Shown here one piece after another: positions 1 through 61,097 of a DNA stretch of 64,000 bases (position 1 is the first letter of the stretch; each line of letters starts with the position of its first letter). A program made the position numbers and the translations under genes. This stretch comes from Phaeacidiphilus oryzae TH49. Its GTDB lineage: Bacteria; Actinomycetota; Actinomycetes; Streptomycetales; Streptomycetaceae. The stretch covers positions 2,488,055 through 2,552,054 of the forward strand of contig NZ_JQMQ01000005.1 of the NCBI RefSeq assembly GCF_000744815.1, in the 5' to 3' direction. The notes under the pieces are model-generated. The model did not search any database and was not told where the DNA came from. It saw only the letters and a list, made by a program, of their open reading frames with translations.

Positions 1-530
1 CGGTGGTCATGGTCAGCGTCTTCGGCACGATGGCGGCGGACGTCCTCCATGTCGTGCTGGGGGTGCCCTACCAGGTGTCGACGCCGTTCTTCGCGGTCGC
101 GCTCGCGGTGGTGCTGGGGCTGTGGCGGTGGACCGAGGGGACGCTGTCGATCCACAGCGTGGTCTCCGGGCGCCGCGAGGTCTGGTACTGGCTCACGGTG
201 CTGTGCACGTTCGCCCTGGGGACGGCGGCGGGGGACCTCACCGCGTACACCCTGGGGCTGGGGTACCTGGCCTCCGCGGTGCTGTTCGCGGTGGTGATCG
301 TGGTTCCGGCCCTCGGGTACGGGGTCTTCCGGCTGAACGCCGTCTTCGCCTTCTGGTTCGCGTATGTGGTGACGCGGCCGCTGGGCGCCTCGCTGGCGGA
401 CTGGATGGCGGTCTCCAAGGCGCGCGGCGGGCTGGCCTTCGGCCTCGGCGCGACGACGGCGGCCTGGACGGTGGCGATCGTCGCCTTCGTCGGCTATCTG
501 GCGATGTCCCGCCGCCGCGAGACCGCGTAG
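1..530 (+). CDS. COG4705-type multi-pass membrane protein (5' end cut by window)
   Basis: The reading frame enters from outside the window and ends at TAG 528-530; about 175 residues are visible. The protein is almost entirely hydrophobic, with about five membrane segments. It contains an internal duplication: two similar blocks, each with an aromatic helix followed by a Thr/Ala-Ala-Asp segment (AAD near residue 12, AAGD near residue 76) and a short Leu-Gly loop. This duplicated pattern is what I associate with COG4705 predicted membrane proteins, whose function is unknown. Family members usually begin a few dozen residues further upstream, so the GTG at base 3 is probably not the true start. 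The gene on the other strand converges on it, with only 12 bases between the two stops. Confidence 0.6.
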   Translation, partial: VVMVSVFGTMAADVLHVVLGVPYQVSTPFFAVALAVVLGLWRWTEGTLSIHSVVSGRREVWYWLTVLCTFALGTAAGDLTAYTLGLGYLASAVLFAVVIVVPALGYGVFRLNAVFAFWFAYVVTRPLGASLADWMAVSKARGGLAFGLGATTAAWTVAIVAFVGYLAMSRRRETA

Positions 531-2180: not shown

Positions 2181-3386
2181 TCAGCTGCCCGAGGTCCACT
2201 CCGACCAGGACATGTTCCAGCCGTTCCAGCCGTTGTCCGGGGCCACGGTCTTGTCCGGCGAGTGGACGACCTGGACCACGTCGCCGATCAGCGAGCTGTT
2301 GTAGAACCAGGCCGCCGGGGTGGACGGGTCGCCGCCGCCCTGCACGTCGTGGAGGCCGACGCAGCCGTGGCTGGTGTCCTCGCTGCCGAAGACGGAGAGC
2401 GGCCGCCAGTAGTTGCCGTGGATGAAGGTGCCGGACGGGGTCAGCCGCTGGGCGTGCGGGACGTCCGGGATGTTGTAGGCGTTGCCCAGGCCGACCGTCC
2501 TGGAGTCCATGTTGACGGTCCGGTCCTGCTCCATGATGACCATCTTGCCGTTGTACGTGGTGTGCCCGGGGGCGCCGAGGCTGGCCGGCAGGGTGCGGAT
2601 CAGCTTGCCTCCCCGGTAGACCTTCACCGTCTTGGTGTGGTCGTCGGCGACGCTGACCTGGCTGCGGCCGATCGAGAAGGAGACGTCCTTGTACTGCTGG
2701 CCGTAGGTGCCGCTGGAGGTCTTCACCCCGTCCAGCCTCAGGTGGAGGGTGCCCTTGGTGCCGGGCTGCCAGTAGTTCTCCGGACGGAAGTCCAGGCGCT
2801 GGTCGTTGAACCAGTGGCCGACCACCGGGACGCCGTTGGAGGCGGTCACCGTGATCGCCTTGCCGACCTTGCTCTCGTCGTCCACCGGGTACTTGAAGTT
2901 GAGCGAGACCTCGATGCCGACGCCGTAGGTCTGGTTCGGGTTGATGTTGAAGTACGCCACGTTGGTACGGCTCGGCTTCAGCGTGGTGAAGCTGGTGCTG
3001 GTGCTGGCGGCCAGCCCCTTGGCGTCCACCGCCGTGGCCGAGACGGTGTACTTGGTGGCGGTGCGCAGGGTGCCGCTGGGCGTCCAGGAGGCCTTGTCCG
3101 CGGAGAGGGCACCGGGCACCGCGGTGCCGTCCGGCGCGGTCACCGCGACCTTGGTGAACTTCCCGGAGGCGACCGCGAGCTTGACCGCGCCGCTGGTGTC
3201 CACCCCCTTCGCACCCGCCCCCGGCTGCACGGTGATCTTCGCGGCGGACCGCTCAGGAGCCGCGGCGTGCTTGCCCCCCGATGTTGTGCTCGCGCTGCTG
3301 CTCCCGCCGCAGGCGGCGGTGAGCGCGAGCGCCGATCCGACCACTGCGGACAACAGGCCGCGCTTGACGAGCTTCGCCGATATCAA
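2181..3386 (-). CDS. L,D-transpeptidase lipoprotein (YkuD family, Ig-like domains)
   Basis: 401 residues. The N-terminus is a lipoprotein signal: K/R residues, a hydrophobic stretch and a lipobox LTAAC with Cys26 as the lipidation site. Two Ig-like regions follow, then a YkuD catalytic domain with an upstream His-Gly-Asn segment (HGNYW) and the catalytic motif SHGCVGL, Cys342. These enzymes form 3-3 cross-links in peptidoglycan on the outer face of the membrane and are abundant in actinobacteria. I place the start at TTG 3384-3386, because GGGGAGAG lies just upstream and the signal peptide begins there; reading from an upstream codon would put 21 unlikely residues ahead of the signal. The gene is single, with a hairpin at each end of its region. 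Confidence 0.9.
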   Translation of the reverse strand: MISAKLVKRGLLSAVVGSALALTAACGGSSSASTTSGGKHAAAPERSAAKITVQPGAGAKGVDTSGAVKLAVASGKFTKVAVTAPDGTAVPGALSADKASWTPSGTLRTATKYTVSATAVDAKGLAASTSTSFTTLKPSRTNVAYFNINPNQTYGVGIEVSLNFKYPVDDESKVGKAITVTASNGVPVVGHWFNDQRLDFRPENYWQPGTKGTLHLRLDGVKTSSGTYGQQYKDVSFSIGRSQVSVADDHTKTVKVYRGGKLIRTLPASLGAPGHTTYNGKMVIMEQDRTVNMDSRTVGLGNAYNIPDVPHAQRLTPSGTFIHGNYWRPLSVFGSEDTSHGCVGLHDVQGGGDPSTPAAWFYNSSLIGDVVQVVHSPDKTVAPDNGWNGWNMSWSEWTSGS

Positions 3387-3835
3387 CCGTCTCTCCCCTC
3401 CCGGTTCCGGACCCCGCTGCGACGCATCTACTAGAACGCACGGTCGCACCGCGTCAGTTGCGGCTGAGTGCAGGATTCTCGTGCAGACGCCCGCGCTGCC
3501 AGTAGACGCCCGGCCAGAACGGCGGGGGGCGTCCCGCGTAGTGCGGTTGCGCTGCGGTGATAGTGAGAATATCCGGCTTTCCCGGGCATGGGGGCGCCGG
3601 ATAAGCGTGGAGAGGGTTCGGGACCGAGTTGTTACGAATCACGGAAACGGGAGGGCGGCCGGCGAGGCCGGAGGACGGGCGCCGCCCCTCCCGGCCCGGG
3701 TCCGCACCCGCGTCTCCGCCCCCGCTTCCGGCCCGCACGCCACCGCTCGGCGACGGCCCGGGGGTGAGGACACGTCAGCGCGGGAACCACTAGGTCACAG
3801 GCGGGGAACGGGACCCCCGCGGGCGGAGGACACCG
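3387..3835. other. Divergent intergenic region between the L,D-transpeptidase and glgX
   Basis: 449 bases with no convincing gene. It should carry the promoters of both divergent genes. A relatively AT-rich patch lies at 3545-3645, but I could not find a -35/-10 pair with good spacing on either strand. GGAGG at about 3825-3829 is the glgX ribosome-binding site. Confidence 0.5.
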
Positions 3836-6241
3836 ATGACGGCGTGGCAGGGTGCCGAACCCACCGACGGACAGACCCCGGCCGACCGCTCGCCGCGGCC
3901 GTCCAGCCCGCCGCTCCCCCCACCGCACCCCCAGCCACCCGCCCGCCCGCAGCTGCCCACCGGGCAGCCCCGGCTGCACCTGGTGCCCCCGGCGGAGTTC
4001 GACACCGGCCCCGCCCGGCCGCCCGGCCAGCCGCCGGACCCGTACGCCCCCGGCGACCCGCCGTGGCCGGGCAGCTGGCAGCCGCTCGGCGCCCGCTACC
4101 ACCTCGGCCCGGACGGCCGGCCGGGCACCAACTTCGCGCTCTGGGCGGCCGGGGCCGAGGAGGTCGAGCTCTGCCTCTTCGACGAGGAGGGCCGGGAGAC
4201 CCGCTACCCGCTGACCGAGCAGACCTTCCAGACCTGGCATGGGCACATACCCGGGGTGCGCCCGGGCAGCCGCTACGGCTTCCGGGTGCACGGCCGCTGG
4301 GACCCCTGGACGGGGGCCCGCTGGAACCCGGCCAAGCTGCTCCTCGACCCCTACGCCCGGGCGGTGGACGGGGACTTCGCCCTGCCCCCCGAGGTGTACG
4401 GGCACGTCAGGGACTGGCCAGAGCAGGAGGTCGCGGACACCGTCCGGGACGACCGGGACTCGGCCCCGTTCGTCCCCAAGTCGGTGGTGGTCCACGACGA
4501 GGACGACTGGTCGGACGACCGCAGGCCGAAGACCCCGTGGGCCGACACCGTCCTCTACGAGCTGCACGTCCGCGGCTTCACCAAGCGGCACCCGGACATC
4601 CCGCCGGAACTCCGCGGCACGTACGCGGGCCTGGCCCACCCGGCGGCGGTCGAGCACCTGACCCGGCTCGGGGTGACCGCGGTGGAGCTCCTCCCCGTGC
4701 AGCAGTTCGTCAGCGAACCCCACCTCAGCGAGCGGGGGCTGCGGAACTACTGGGGCTACAACACCATCGGCTATTTCGCCCCGCACGCGAGCTACGCGGC
4801 CACCGGCACCCGCGGGCAGCAGGTGACCGAGTTCAAGCGGATGGTCCGCACCCTCCACGCGGCCGGGATCGAGGTGATCCTGGACGTCGTCTACAACCAC
4901 ACCGCGGAGGGCGGCCAGCTCGGCCCGACGCTCTGCTTCCGCGGCGTCGACAACGGCGCCTACTACCGCCTCAACCCCCACGACCGGCGCGGCTACGCGG
5001 ACTACACCGGCTGCGGCAACACCCTGGACGCCCGGCTGCCGCCGGTGCTCCGGCTGATCACCGACTCCCTCCGCTACTGGGTGGCCGAGATGGGGGTGGA
5101 CGGCTTCCGCTTCGACCTGGCGGCGGCGCTGGCCCGCGGGCCGCACGAGGTCGACTTCCTCACCCCCTTCATGGCCTCGGTCTCGCAGGACCCGCTGCTC
5201 AGCCGGGTGAAGCTGATCGCCGAACCGTGGGACATCGGTCCCGGCGGCTACCGGGTGGGCGGCTTCCCGCCGCTCTGGACGGAGTGGAACGACCGGTTCC
5301 GGGACGGGGTGCGGGACTTCTGGCGGGGCGCCCGCCGGGACGTCCGCGAGCTGGGCTACCGGCTCTCCGGCTCCTCCGACCTCTACCAGCTGGGCGGCCG
5401 CCGCCCGTACGCCTCGGTCAACTACATCACCGCCCACGACGGGTTCACGCTGCGCGACCTGGTCTCCTACAACCACAAGCACAACGAGGGGAACGGTGAG
5501 GACAACCGGGACGGGACCGACGACAACCGGTCCTGGAACCACGGCGCCGAGGGCGAGACCCGCAACCCGGCGGTGCGCGGGCTCAGGCGCCGCCAGCTGC
5601 GCAACCTGATGAGCACCCTGCTGCTGGCCACCGGCGTGCCGATGCTGCTGGCCGGCGACGAGATGGGCCGCACCCAGGGCGGCAACAACAACGGCTACTG
5701 CCAGGACAACGAGACCGGCTGGATCGACTGGTCGCTGCGCGAGGACCCGGAGTGGGCTGCGCTGCTCGACCTCACCCGGCGGCTGGTCCGGCTCCGCCGG
5801 AACCATCCGGTGCTGCGCCAGCGGGCCTTCTTCTCCGGCCGGCCCAGCCATCCGGGAGGGCTCCGCGACCTGGCCTGGTTCACCCCCGCCGGGACCGAGA
5901 TGACCGAGGAGGACTGGTTCGCGCCCGGCCGGACCATCGGGATGTTCCTCTCCGGCCGGGACATGAGCGAGCCCGATCCGCTGGGGCGGGAGGTCAGGGA
6001 CCGCTCCTTCCTCCTGCTGCTGCACGCCGCCGCCCACCAGACCCGCTTCACCCTGCCGGACGCCCGCTGGGCGGACGGCTACGAGCTGCTGGTCGACACC
6101 GCGCGGGAGGACCAGGCCGAGCCGCCCGGCGACCGCCATCCGGCGGGCGCCAGGATCGCGCTGGCCGCCCGCTCGGCGCTGCTGCTCTGTTCGCTCCCGG
6201 CGGCCGGGGACGGCGGAGGAGACGACGGCGCGGCGGGTTGA
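3836..6241 (+). CDS. glgX: Glycogen debranching protein GlgX (isoamylase type)
   Basis: 801 residues; GH13 isoamylase-type enzyme that cleaves alpha-1,6 branches of glycogen. After a Pro-rich tail of about 70 residues, unusual in length, come the CBM48-like domain and the catalytic barrel. Active-site residues are visible: nucleophile Asp427 in GFRFDLA, acid/base Glu463 in LIAEPWD and Asp535 in TAHDGFT. The GDEMGRTQGGNNNGYCQDNE segment is typical of GlgX. The start is ATG with GGAGG ten bases upstream. It lies apart from the glgE operon but feeds the same glucan pool. The next gene, an ECF sigma factor, starts 32 bases after its stop, so read-through transcription is possible. Confidence 0.95.
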   Translation: MTAWQGAEPTDGQTPADRSPRPSSPPLPPPHPQPPARPQLPTGQPRLHLVPPAEFDTGPARPPGQPPDPYAPGDPPWPGSWQPLGARYHLGPDGRPGTNFALWAAGAEEVELCLFDEEGRETRYPLTEQTFQTWHGHIPGVRPGSRYGFRVHGRWDPWTGARWNPAKLLLDPYARAVDGDFALPPEVYGHVRDWPEQEVADTVRDDRDSAPFVPKSVVVHDEDDWSDDRRPKTPWADTVLYELHVRGFTKRHPDIPPELRGTYAGLAHPAAVEHLTRLGVTAVELLPVQQFVSEPHLSERGLRNYWGYNTIGYFAPHASYAATGTRGQQVTEFKRMVRTLHAAGIEVILDVVYNHTAEGGQLGPTLCFRGVDNGAYYRLNPHDRRGYADYTGCGNTLDARLPPVLRLITDSLRYWVAEMGVDGFRFDLAAALARGPHEVDFLTPFMASVSQDPLLSRVKLIAEPWDIGPGGYRVGGFPPLWTEWNDRFRDGVRDFWRGARRDVRELGYRLSGSSDLYQLGGRRPYASVNYITAHDGFTLRDLVSYNHKHNEGNGEDNRDGTDDNRSWNHGAEGETRNPAVRGLRRRQLRNLMSTLLLATGVPMLLAGDEMGRTQGGNNNGYCQDNETGWIDWSLREDPEWAALLDLTRRLVRLRRNHPVLRQRAFFSGRPSHPGGLRDLAWFTPAGTEMTEEDWFAPGRTIGMFLSGRDMSEPDPLGREVRDRSFLLLLHAAAHQTRFTLPDARWADGYELLVDTAREDQAEPPGDRHPAGARIALAARSALLLCSLPAAGDGGGDDGAAG

Positions 6242-35164: not shown

Positions 35165-35207
35165 CGTCCGCCGACCGCGCGCCGCGGTCGGCAACGCCGC
35201 GGCAGAA

Positions 35208-35249
35208 CGCGAACGCCGCACCCGGCAGAGGCCGGGTGCGGCGTTCGCG
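35208..35249. terminator. 19-bp perfect stem with AGAG loop between convergent genes
   Basis: Bases 35208-35226 pair perfectly with 35231-35249 around a four-base loop. It lies 43 bases after the pyk stop and 16 bases past the convergent minus-strand gene at 35266. A bidirectional terminator is the clear reading. Confidence 0.85.
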
Positions 35250-35265
35250 TGTGGCGGGCGTCAGC

Positions 35266-40001: not shown

Positions 40002-40610
40002 ATGTCCGATTCGCCCCGGCGCCGAGGCCGCCCGCGCAGTACCGACGCGGATGCGGCGATCCTCGACGCCACCCGGCGGGTGCTCGCCGAGGTCGGCTGG
40101 GACGGGCTCACCATGGCCGAGGTCGCGGCGCGGGCGGGGGTCGCCAAGACCACCCTCTACCGCCGCTGGCCGTCCAAGCACGAGCTGGTGGTGGACGCCG
40201 TGGCGGCGCTCTTCGCCGGGCTGGCGCTGCCCGACCTGGGCTCGCTGCGGGCCGATCTGGAGGAGGTCGTCGCCCGCTTCGCCGCGCTGCTGGCCCGGCC
40301 GGAGGCGCAGGCCTCGCTCTACGCCCTCTTCGCGGAGGGGACGCGGGACGCGACGCTGCGGGCGCGGATCCGGGAGGCGGTCATCGCCCCGATGAAGTCC
40401 CTGGTGCATCAGGGGCGGGCGGCGGCGCAGGAGCGGGGAGAGCTGCCGCCGGACGGGTCGCGGGCGGCGGCCGCGGCGGAGGCGGACCTCATCTACGACG
40501 CGATCGCCGGCACGGTCGAACACCGGGTCCTGGTCACCGGCGAGCCGGCGGACCCGGCGTGGATCCGCCGCTTCACCTCCCTGCTGCTGCTGCCGCTGGG
40601 CGCGGGGTGA
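40002..40610 (+). CDS. TetR-family transcriptional regulator
   Basis: 202 residues. The N-terminal DNA-binding domain is typical: AILDATRRVLAEVGWDGLT, then the helix-turn-helix VAARAGVAKTTLYRRWPSKHELV. The C-terminal ligand domain matches the AcrR/TetR_C_11 style (IYDAIAGTVEHRVLVTGEP near the end), often seen in regulators of efflux or acyl-CoA-related genes. ATG 40002 has no ribosome-binding site. Neighbours: divergent thioredoxin-like gene upstream and convergent icmA downstream. The palindromes at 39896-39914 and in the icmA promoter are both candidate targets; neither is proven. Confidence 0.9.
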   Translation: MSDSPRRRGRPRSTDADAAILDATRRVLAEVGWDGLTMAEVAARAGVAKTTLYRRWPSKHELVVDAVAALFAGLALPDLGSLRADLEEVVARFAALLARPEAQASLYALFAEGTRDATLRARIREAVIAPMKSLVHQGRAAAQERGELPPDGSRAAAAAEADLIYDAIAGTVEHRVLVTGEPADPAWIRRFTSLLLLPLGAG

Positions 40611-40795: not shown

Positions 40796-42490
40796 CTAGA
40801 AGCCCGCAGGCTCCGTGTAGACGCCCCACTCCGCGCGCAGCGCGTCGCAGATCTCGCCCAGCGTCGCCTCCGCGCGGACCGCGGCCAGCATCGGCGGGAT
40901 CATGTTCTCGCCGCCCCGCGCGGCGGCCATCATCGCGTCGAGGCCGGCCCGTACCGCGGACTCGTCCCGCTGGGCCCGCCGCTCCGCCAGCGCGGCGACC
41001 TGGTCCCGCTCGACCTCGTGGCTGACCCGCAGGATCTCCAGCTCCGAACTGACGGAACCGGTGTGGCAGTTGACGCCGACGACTCGCTTCTCGCCCTTCT
41101 CCAGCTTCTGCTGGTACTGGAACGCCGCCTCCGCGATCTCCCCGGTGAACCACCCGTTCTCGATCCCCCGCAGGATCCCGGAGGTCATCGGCCCGATCGG
41201 GTGCTCGACCCCCGCGCCCTCGCCGCCGCCCATCCGGAGGATCTTCTCGAAGATCTCCTCGGCCTCCGCCTCGATCCGGTCCGTCAGCGCCTCGACGTAC
41301 CAGGAACCGCCCAGCGGGTCGGCCGAGTTGGCCACCCCGGTCTCCTCCATCAGCACCTGCTGGGTGCGCAGCGCGATCTCCGCGGCCTGCTCGCTGGGCA
41401 GCGCCAGCGTCTCGTCCAGGGCGTTGGTGTGCAGCGAGTTGGTGCCGCCGAGCACCGCCGCCAGCGCCTCCACCGCGGTCCGCACCACGTTGTTGTAGGG
41501 CTGCTGGGCGGTCAGCGAGACGCCGGCGGTCTGGGTGTGGAAGCGCAGCCACTGCGCCTTCTCGGTCTTCGCGCCGTAGCGGTCGCGCAGCCAGCGGGCC
41601 CAGATCCGGCGCGCGGCACGGAACTTGGCGATCTCCTCGAAGAAGTCGATATGGGCGTCGAAGAAGAAGGAGAGCCCCGGGGCGAAGGCGTCCACGTCGA
41701 GCCCGCGGGAGAGCCCCAGCTCGACGTAGCCGAAGCCGTCGGCCAGGGTGAAGGCGAGCTCCTGCGCGGCCGTCGAGCCGGCCTCGCGGATGTGGTAGCC
41801 GGAGACCGAGAGCGGCTTGTACGCGGGGATCTCGGCCGCGCAGTACTCCATCAGGTCGCCGATCAGCCGCAGATGCGGCTCGGGGCCGAAGAGCCACTCC
41901 TTCTGGGCGATGTACTCCTTGAAGATGTCCGTCTGGAGGGTGCCGTTGAGCACGGCCGGGTCGACGCCCTGCCGCTCGGCGGCCACCAGGTACATGCAGA
42001 AGACCGGGACGGCCGGGCCGGAGATGGTCATCGAGGTGGTGACCTCGCCGAGCGGGATGCCGTCGAAGAGGACGTCCATGTCGGCGGCGGTGTCGATGGC
42101 CACCCCGCAGTGCCCGACCTCGCCGAGGGCGCGCGGGTCGTCGGAGTCCCGGCCCATCAGCGTCGGCATGTCGAAGGCGACAGAGAGCCCGCCGCCGCCG
42201 GCGCCGAGGATCATCCGATAGCGCTCGTTGGTCTGCCGGGCGTTGCCGAAGCCGGCGAACTGCCGGATGGTCCAGGCCCGGCCGCGGTAGCCGGTCGGAT
42301 AGAGGCCGCGGGTGAAGGGGAACTCACCGGGCCAGCCGATCCGCTCGGCGAAACCCGGCGGCTCGTGCCCCGGCTCGGGGCCGTAGACCGGCTCGACCTG
42401 GTCGCCGGAGAGGGTGGTGAAGTCCGCGTCCCTCTTCCGCGCCCGGTCGTACCTCTCCTGCCAGCGCCGCCGTGCTTCTTGGGCTTCCAT
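40796..42490 (-). CDS. icmA: Isobutyryl-CoA mutase large subunit-like protein (acyl-CoA mutase)
   Basis: 564 residues, B12-dependent mutase barrel without its own cobalamin-binding domain, so it needs a separate small subunit (icmB), which is not in the window. The length agrees with the roughly 566 residues of known IcmA. By my alignment, the position of methylmalonyl-CoA mutase Arg207, which binds the substrate carboxylate, is Gln here ([12 protein letters not shown]), the isobutyryl-CoA mutase signature. It interconverts isobutyryl-CoA and n-butyryl-CoA, linking valine breakdown to butyrate and polyketide precursors. ATG 42490 fits the family start; a longer frame begins at 42517. It is expressed from the palindrome-embedded promoter at 42515-42564. 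The mutase chaperone gene meaB lies 8 kb away. Confidence 0.9.
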
Positions 42491-42514: not shown

Positions 42515-42564
42515 CAACTACTCGGACGTCCGACAATTTAGTCGGACGTCCTAGTAGTTGTCGA
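42515..42564 (-). promoter_or_regulatory. icmA promoter embedded in a 46-base palindrome
   Basis: On the minus strand a near-consensus promoter is visible: TCGACA (42559-42564), 18 bases, then TAAATT (42535-42540), about 45 bases before the icmA ATG. The -10 hexamer is exactly the six-base centre of an inverted repeat with 20-base arms (42515-42534 and 42541-42560) that pair at 19 of 20 positions. The inner eleven, GGACGTCCGAC, match perfectly. A repressor dimer or pair of dimers bound here would cover the whole promoter. Confidence 0.8.
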
Positions 42565-42598: not shown

Positions 42599-42961
42599 TC
42601 AGGCGCTGACGGTCTCCTCCTCGTCGGCCCCGTCCAGGGCCGCCCCGCGGGCCGCCAGCTCGGCGGAGATCTCCCGGACGACGCGGCGCTCGGCGAAGAA
42701 CGAGCAGGTCGGGATGGTGCCCGCGAGCAGCACCAGGATCAGCTTCTTCAGCGGCCACTTGAGCTTCATGCCCAGCGAGAACGCGACCACGACGTAGGCC
42801 ATGTAGGCCCAGCCGTGGATGGTGCCGATGATCATCACGGAGGACGGGGCCACCCCGAAGCCGTACCAGACGATCATCGAGATGCAGAGCAGCACCAGCC
42901 CCACGCCGGTGATGTACGCGAGAGCCCGGTAAGCCTTGAGCAGGGGGGTGGAGTTCTTCAC
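42599..42961 (-). CDS. DUF3817-type small membrane protein
   Basis: 120 residues with three hydrophobic segments (about residues 13-32, 40-63 and 72-92). It has the polar pattern of DUF3817 proteins: YRALAYITGV near the start, GTIHGWAYMAYV in the second helix and TIPTCSFFAERRV at the end. Function unknown. I take GTG 42961 as the start, since the family begins just before YRALAY; the frame is open further upstream. It forms a tight minus-strand group with the MarR gene (about 60 bases away) and a second DUF3817 gene, suggesting a small regulated membrane module. Confidence 0.8.
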   Translation of the reverse strand: MKNSTPLLKAYRALAYITGVGLVLLCISMIVWYGFGVAPSSVMIIGTIHGWAYMAYVVVAFSLGMKLKWPLKKLILVLLAGTIPTCSFFAERRVVREISAELAARGAALDGADEEETVSA

Positions 42962-43024
42962 GGCGTTCGCCTCGCTCGCCTCAACCGATGGTTCAAGAGG
43001 AGAGCGTAACCGCCGCAAAATGGA

Positions 43025-43567
43025 TCACTCGGACCGGCCCGGCGCCGCCGGTGCCCCCTCGCCGTCCGCGAAGTCCCCCGCGGCGATCCGCAGGGGCCGG
43101 AGTATGTCGAAGATCTCCCGGCACTGGTCCGGTCCGTAGCCGTCCAGACCGAAGTCCATCGCCATCAGCTCGCGGCTGGCCGACTCGACCACCCGGCGGC
43201 CCTCCTCGGTGATCGCCGCCAGCACCCCTCGGCCGTCGTCCGGGTTGGGGCGGCGGGTCACCAGGCCGGCCTTCTCCAGCCGGTCCACGGTGTTGGTGAC
43301 GCTGGTCGGGTGCACCATCAGCCGCTCGCCGATCTTCGAAAGCGGCAGCTCGCCCTTCTGACTGAACGTCAGCAGCACCAGCGCCTCGTACCGGGCGAAG
43401 GTCAGGCCGTAGGGCTTGACCACACCGTCCACCTGCGACAGCAGGATCTGCTGGGCGCGCATGATCGAGGTGATCGCGGCCATCGCGGGCACCTCGCCCC
43501 AGCGGTGCTGCCACAGCTCATCGGCGCGGGCGATCGGGTCGAACGGAAGACTCAGCGGCTTCGGCAC
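43025..43567 (-). CDS. MarR-family transcriptional regulator
   Basis: 180 residues with the winged-helix core: the recognition region GERLMVHPTSVTNTVDRLEKAGLV and the wing RRPNPDDGRGVLAAIT. An N-terminal helix (SIMRAQQILLSQVDGVV) and a C-terminal helix form the dimerisation surface. GTG 43567 has AAGGGC upstream. It sits between two DUF3817 genes on the same strand, spaced 16 and 63 bases away, so it is part of their transcript and may control it. Confidence 0.9.
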   Translation of the reverse strand: MPKPLSLPFDPIARADELWQHRWGEVPAMAAITSIMRAQQILLSQVDGVVKPYGLTFARYEALVLLTFSQKGELPLSKIGERLMVHPTSVTNTVDRLEKAGLVTRRPNPDDGRGVLAAITEEGRRVVESASRELMAMDFGLDGYGPDQCREIFDILRPLRIAAGDFADGEGAPAAPGRSE

Positions 43568-44945: not shown

Positions 44946-45443
44946 ATGAAGACCCGCTCGCCCGAAACCGGCGCTCCCTCGGAGACCCCCTGGCTGACCG
45001 AGGAGGAGCAGCAGCTCTGGCGCGCCCACCTAGAGGTGACCAGGCTGCTCGACTACCAGCTGGAGCGCGAACTCCAGCCGCTCGGGCTGGCCCTGAACGA
45101 CTACACGATCCTGGTCGAGCTCTCCGAGTCGCCCGACCACCGGCGGCGGATGACCGACCTGGCCGCCGCCACCCTGCAGTCCAAGAGCCGGCTCTCGCAC
45201 CAGATCACCCGGATGGAGAACGCGGGCCTGGTGGTCCGCGAGGACTGCCCGGGCGACCGGCGCGGACTCTACGCGGTCCTCACCGAGCAGGGCATGGAGA
45301 CGATGCGCCGGGTCGCCCCGCACCATGTGCGGAGCGTCCGCGAGCACTTCATCGACCGCCTCGACGCCGGCCAGATCCGCCAGCTCAGGGACGCCCTCGC
45401 GCCGATCGCCGAGCACCTCAGGCGGCTCCGGGGACGGGGTTGA
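44946..45443 (+). CDS. MarR-family transcriptional regulator
   Basis: 165 residues. The winged helix is complete: LAAATLQSKSRLSHQITRMENAGLV as the recognition region and DCPGDRRGLYAVLT as the wing; long N- and C-terminal helices form the dimer interface. ATG 44946 has GGAG five bases upstream, and an AT-rich operator-like segment precedes it, so autoregulation is likely. Its target may include the DUF2127 membrane protein upstream. It converges with the DUF6493-type gene; a ten-base tandem repeat starts at its stop codon. Confidence 0.9.
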   Translation: MKTRSPETGAPSETPWLTEEEQQLWRAHLEVTRLLDYQLERELQPLGLALNDYTILVELSESPDHRRRMTDLAAATLQSKSRLSHQITRMENAGLVVREDCPGDRRGLYAVLTEQGMETMRRVAPHHVRSVREHFIDRLDAGQIRQLRDALAPIAEHLRRLRGRG

Positions 45444-61015: not shown

Positions 61016-61031
61016 CCCTCCGGCAGGTGGC

Positions 61032-61080
61032 GGAGCGGTCCGAGGGGCGCGGGCAACCGGCGCGCCCCTCGGGCCGCTCC
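61032..61080. terminator. 20-bp stem-loop between convergent genes
   Basis: Bases 61032-61051 pair with 61061-61080 (19 Watson-Crick pairs and one G-T) around a nine-base loop, 16 bases after the FUSC stop and 17 before the end of the convergent hydrolase. A bidirectional terminator. Confidence 0.85.
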
Positions 61081-61097
61081 GTACTTCCGCGGGACGG

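Follow-up and report, generated by a model that had tools for sequence, protein, structure and literature searches.

The isobutyryl-CoA mutase gene icmA of Phaeacidiphilus oryzae TH49 is preceded by a long inverted repeat that coincides with its predicted promoter, and the question raised by this locus is which regulator, if any, reads that repeat and what else it controls. In the window, i.e., the whole 64-kb stretch of DNA that was analysed, icmA is found on the minus strand at 40796..42490 and encodes a large subunit of 564 residues (Pfam PF01642, 692 bits; NCBIfam TIGR00641, 668 bits). The protein carries IRQFAGF and YIAQKEWLF, which place it among the isobutyryl-CoA mutases; the hallmark is taken to be Phe and Gln at the mutase-domain positions where methylmalonyl-CoA mutase has Tyr and Arg. 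Matches at 82-89% are found in 37 further genomes of the 41 that make up the organism's own family (f1, taken as Streptomycetaceae from named relatives), and SCO5415 is presumably the icmA of Streptomyces (S.) coelicolor. The start codon is most likely the ATG at 42490, like that of the relatives, and the TTG at 42517 merely opens the longest frame. Upstream of icmA and on the same strand are a DUF3817 membrane protein gene (42599..43018, PF12823) and a gene for a MarR-type protein, here called MarR1 (43025..43567). The genes at 40002 and 44946 encode a TetR-type protein and a second MarR protein (MarR2), respectively. Elsewhere in the window, the minus strand at 38259-38351 matches the che1 sRNA family (RF02935).

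The first-pass annotation had described a -10 box at the centre of a single, unusually long operator of 46 bp, and the geometry of this description is correct. Two 20-nt arms (42515-42534 and 42541-42560) pair with a single mismatch around a loop of 6 nt (42535-42540; TAAATT on the minus strand), and the same strand carries TCGACA 18 bp upstream of this loop (42564-42559). The arms can be extended to 23 nt at 91% pairing, the core GGACGTCC is a palindrome in its own right, and the local AT content is raised (46% vs 26%). With a match/mismatch score of 17, the repeat exceeds the top inverted repeat of all 40 dinucleotide-shuffled versions of the window (10 to 14 per shuffle). Three other inverted repeats in the window (35207-35250, 61031-61081 and 1214-1257) score higher, and length alone is therefore no distinguishing mark of the icmA repeat. 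These three are long, GC-rich and terminator-like.

It is the composition of the icmA repeat, rather than its length, that sets it apart. The 46 bases (42515..42560) are composed of two adjoining copies, with one and two mismatches, of the self-palindromic 18-mer TACTNGGACGTCCNAGTA, the centres of which are 20 bp apart; the appearance of one longer palindrome arises because these two self-palindromes stand side by side. Unit 1 (TACTAGGACGTCCGACTA, 42539..42556, minus strand, centre 42547.5) and unit 2 (TTGTCGGACGTCCGAGTA, 42519..42536, minus strand, centre 42527.5) reach scores of 37.1 and 24.4, respectively, with a matrix built from the sites of other families, and are the only places in the 64-kb window that score above 5.

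The predicted -35 box (TCGACA, 42559..42564, minus strand) and -10 box (TAAATT, 42535..42540, minus strand) are both conserved in relatives, which supports the proposed overlap of the repeat with the icmA promoter. By script, 21 of 30 family regions show the two boxes 18 bp apart, and counting locus L055 from its first unit makes it 22. The placement of unit 1 is the same in these relatives (TCGACA-18-TAAATT), i.e., the 18-bp promoter spacer of the family is the operator itself. The central position of the -10 box holds for the window, where it results from the two units that flank the box, but it is not a general feature; in single-unit relatives the -10 box forms the 3' edge of the unit. A start codon 6-7 nt after the -10 box in 13 of the 30 regions suggests a leaderless mRNA. 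In the window the start codon is found 44 nt past the -10 box, and unit 2, which lies at and just downstream of this box, would therefore cover the predicted start site.

The site persists upstream of icmA throughout most of the family, contrary to the absence in relatives that the first-pass annotation had named as grounds for refutation. At least one unit is present in all 30 icmA upstream regions scanned, the window included. Only one clear copy is seen in 22 of these, while a second well-scoring unit at 20-21 bp is found in six (the window and five relatives); the second unit is located at 26 bp in L048, is very weak in L045 and overlaps the first in L052. The conserved element is consequently a palindrome of 18-24 bp, and the single 46-bp operator is not borne out. 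Among the other eight of the 38 family icmA genes, six have, judged by coordinates, the strict site immediately ahead of icmA, one (G003) has a near-site scoring 37.8 and one (G014) has none, which gives a site in 37 of 38. In the exception, G014, MarR1 is found at 69% and about 8 kb from icmA. The same pattern is seen in 80 named loci retrieved through their similarity to MarR1; an icmA start is present in 77 of these, and a site precedes icmA in 76, the exception being L332.

The note of a "specific regulator" could be examined across the class, in a sample of 246 genomes from 104 genera, using the strict motif TANTNGGACRTCCNANTA. (A looser pattern, CGGACGTCCN{3,5}AG, had been dropped as too permissive, with 83 matches against 38 for its reversed control.) The strict motif occurs in 87 genomes and its reversed control in one. 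Orthologs of MarR1 are found in 161 of the 246 genomes, among them all 87 that harbor the motif. The TetR protein occurs in 23 genomes, 21 of them from the own family, and in 22 of the 87 motif genomes, being absent from 65; MarR2 occurs in 117 and 50, respectively, and is absent from 37 motif genomes. These distributions support a specific regulator of icmA. Of the regulators named by the first-pass annotation, i.e., the TetR protein or one of the nearby MarR proteins, they favor the MarR protein at 43025 and speak against the one at 44946, while the TetR protein is left without support; as readers of the motif, TetR and MarR2 were both rejected on co-occurrence.

The same relation is seen when icmA is taken as the starting point. 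The gene is present in 104 genomes, 73 with and 31 without MarR1, and a site precedes icmA in 72 of the 73. This site is strict in 61 (26 from the class-wide locus look-up, 21 from the own family, 13 from family f17, and G058), and of the remaining 12, 11 have near-sites at matrix scores of 22-36 and one, G122, with MarR1 at 48%, has none; L332 and G014 likewise have MarR1 and icmA with no site. Two further genomes (G107 and G166) show a site before icmA and fall outside the 104, the gene being cut. In genomes with icmA and no MarR1, a site was found in none of 30 regions tested (two of them short, with 111 and 183 bases upstream); the best score was -11, and 310 mononucleotide shuffles reached at most -2.1. 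The thirty-first genome, G156, ends inside icmA and was left out. Absence of MarR1 was called at E <= 1e-30 with at most 14 scored candidates per genome. Fisher's test gives p of about 4e-25, a value that ignores shared ancestry and is descriptive only, and the co-occurrence is in part shared ancestry. Five families (f14, f19, f26, f31 and f33) each hold both MarR1 states, and the presence of the site agrees with them, where three of the within-family contrasts (G176, G280 and G078) are genomes only 81-87% complete.

MarR1 has a MarR winged helix-turn-helix domain (PF01047, 57.9 bits against a cut-off of 24.6), and its best match among solved structures is 4b8x (142 residues, E 2.7e-70), which we take to be Sco5413 of S. 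coelicolor. It is present in all 41 family genomes, as a single match in 40 and as two in G028. In most of the 80 named loci it resides beside DUF3817 (a homolog of which is found in 79) and icmA. The closest solved structure, the single copy and this neighborhood together place it among the Sco5413 orthologs, and LxVHxTSxT in its DNA-binding region is invariant among 12 aligned orthologs. Sco5413 is termed "of unknown function" in a title that appears in reference lists. In the part of the NdgR study available, the ChIP-seq target table contains SCO5413 (asterisked) beside ilvBNC, leuB-ilvE and leuCD (PMC4340878), which provides an experimental link to branched-chain amino acids; SCO5415 is absent from the main text in that part (PMC4340878). 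SCO5413 is also given among glucose-responsive regulators in the accessible portion of a transcriptome paper, where the direction is ambiguous (PMC4848846).

The genes that follow the motif point to what MarR1 may control. The site could be located in 85 of the 87 motif genomes (all except G167 and G277), and it precedes icmA in 63, icmF in 14, mmsA-acdH in seven and an acyl-CoA dehydrogenase gene in one. All 85 fit one pathway, that of isobutyryl-CoA and valine. A late check on eight sites fetched without outcome-based choice, i.e., seven of nine unlocated motif genomes and one second site, yielded five before mmsA-acdH, two before icmF and one, the second site, before an acyl-CoA dehydrogenase-like gene, all of which fitted. 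The identity of IcmF as a fused mutase was confirmed by NCBIfam in the two cases tested (bit scores of 1843 and 1825 against a cut-off of 1500), and that of mmsA in two cases (TIGR01722). Some genomes with icmA have a second site, before icmF (L165, L167), mmsA (L103-L105, L166, L168) or an acyl-CoA dehydrogenase gene (L160, L161). Because the motif is found, in the genomes sampled, only where MarR1 is encoded and before genes of isobutyryl-CoA and valine breakdown, it probably outlines the MarR1 regulon.

In five of 20 loci (L149-L152 and L164, out of L149-L168, which were hand-chosen because their sites are second ones or not near icmA), the MarR1 gene and icmF diverge with the motif between them, the arrangement expected under autoregulation. 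The matrix scan found no site above the MarR1 gene in the window. In genomes without the strict motif or unresolved, it covered 24 regions (20 + 4) upstream of MarR1 genes that lie apart from icmA, and near-sites occur in only two; autoregulation of MarR1 is therefore not universal, and in some families the protein may bind other sites or serve other functions. In all six own-family mmsA loci examined (L103-L106, L166 and L168), a cobalamin riboswitch (RF00174) is found directly behind the operator or overlaps it with the riboswitch start; none is found behind the operator in L154 and L155 (family f4). The mmsA-acdH operon of the own family may thus be under putative MarR and B12 control in series. 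In L103, a RamB-like XRE regulator gene (2572-3987; 664.6 bits, cut-off 700) is located directly before the mmsA operator and may therefore encode a second mmsA regulator; L104 likewise has the RamB-like gene next to mmsA.

Weaker copies of the motif were seen near genes of amino acid synthesis. In 19 of 30 family loci scanned, the own genome included, one lies within roughly 150 bp upstream of ilvE, a count for which the shuffle null was obtained on shorter stretches. In the own genome, the copy about 100 bp upstream of ilvE is at G000:C5:2428018-2428035 (among L031, L033 and L041), and a weaker one, with no evident target, is about 90 bp past the 3' end of serA (G000:C5:2436793-2436810). In G004 (L102), both ilvE and leuB have a copy upstream, that of leuB being separated from the gene by a 31-codon ORF. 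A contig binned as Mucilaginibacter (L281) carries MarR1 at 83% together with the operator and is probably mis-binned.

From the above observations, we consider it likely that the palindrome is a tandem operator of the Sco5413-type protein MarR1, encoded two genes upstream, and that it serves repression of icmA, where binding, repression, cooperativity and ligand are all deduced from comparative sequence data. One MarR1 dimer would bind each self-palindromic unit TACTNGGACGTCCNAGTA, and the two dimers that the first-pass annotation had considered fit the two 18-mer units at 20 bp. The dimer on unit 1 would occupy the spacer of the icmA promoter, between its two boxes, and that on unit 2 would cover the edge of the -10 box and the start region; dimers in these positions would keep RNA polymerase off the promoter, i.e., most simply, repression by exclusion. 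A centre spacing of 20 bp corresponds to about two helical turns and would therefore bring the two dimers to the same face of the helix, an arrangement that could make repression cooperative and tighter. The signal would be a small pathway molecule, most likely an acyl-CoA, for example isobutyryl-CoA, that frees the operator of MarR1 and so lifts the repression of icmA; this ligand is suggested by the putative regulon and by MarR proteins that are known to bind acyl-CoAs, an example of which is CouR.

Other readings of the site are conceivable. A regulator encoded elsewhere and co-inherited with MarR1 could recognize the motif, which would be consistent with loci in which MarR1 is not found within about 3 kb of the motif (L157, L158 and L159), with the 74 of 161 MarR1 genomes that lack the strict motif, and with G014, which has MarR1 and icmA and no site. 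Such a regulator would, however, need to occur in each of the 87 motif genomes and to be absent wherever MarR1 is absent, even within families, and in many families MarR1 adjoins the motif, including cases in which icmA has been lost; we regard this alternative as unlikely. That the repressor is the TetR protein or MarR2 is highly improbable in light of the motif genomes that lack them, even though both genes are near icmA, a TetR relative is found within the flanks of 61 of the 80 named loci, and L108 has a MarR2-like gene directly upstream of icmA.

The position of the operator between the -35 and -10 boxes is also that at which MerR-type activators bind, and MarR1 could in principle act from the spacer as an activator or a dual regulator. 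MerR promoters have spacers of 19-20 bp, whereas 18 bp, near the usual optimum, is found here in 21-22 of 30 regions; in addition, MarR1 is a MarR protein by Pfam and unit 2 covers the start region, so that we consider either role quite improbable. The proposed cruciform DNA switch, or an RNA hairpin, would need no protein and would draw on the long inverted repeat in locally AT-richer DNA. Only one clear unit is found in 22 of 30 family regions, the predicted transcript starts inside unit 2 with a 5' RNA that folds about as well as shuffled sequences (z -0.87), and the presence of the motif follows a protein gene, all of which leaves this explanation with next to no likelihood.

The system proposed for MarR1 has partial parallels among regulators, each described here from the part of the source available. 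As here, the operators of SCO3205, a MarR protein of S. coelicolor, are pseudopalindromic, were derived by comparison of upstream regions, and occur twice upstream of the SCO3205 gene, but their consensus TTnAAnnnTCAA shows no resemblance to TACTNGGACGTCCNAGTA (PMC3737563). BkaR, a mycobacterial repressor of branched-chain keto-acid genes, is similarly autoregulated, has palindromic operators, with the motif twice in one promoter region, and acts on branched-chain catabolic targets; in contrast to MarR1, it belongs to the TetR family, controls other genes and recognizes the core GTTA(N)T(N4)A(N)TAAC, which the icmA site does not contain (PMC3920632). The IclR-type NdgR of S. coelicolor targets SCO5413 and leuB-ilvE, and ilvE of the own family carries the weaker form of the present motif, but the icmA site, TACTNGGACGTCCNAGTA, does not match the 15-bp NdgR motif [GT]T[CT]CAC...GGAC (PMC4340878). 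A literature search that covered few subscription journals returned no target or operator of Sco5413 and no description of this operator or of icmA control; the kind of system is ordinary, and what appears new is that an operator and a regulon are assigned to it.

A broader view, which is offered tentatively and which we hold to be somewhat less probable than its opposite, is that Sco5413-type MarR proteins sense isobutyryl-CoA, or a closely related acyl-CoA, throughout the class Actinomycetes. One operator would then serve the mutase that depends on B12 (icmA or icmF) as well as the oxidative route through mmsA-acdH, the own family would add the cobalamin riboswitch behind the mmsA operator, such that acyl-CoA supply and B12 would jointly decide the route, and NdgR would connect the whole to branched-chain amino acid synthesis. 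A MarR protein that has a solved structure and is widespread in the class would gain a predicted operator, regulon and signal. Polyketides and branched fatty acids are built from isobutyryl-CoA and butyryl-CoA, and a switch acting on the interconversion of these two precursors would therefore bear on antibiotic yield.
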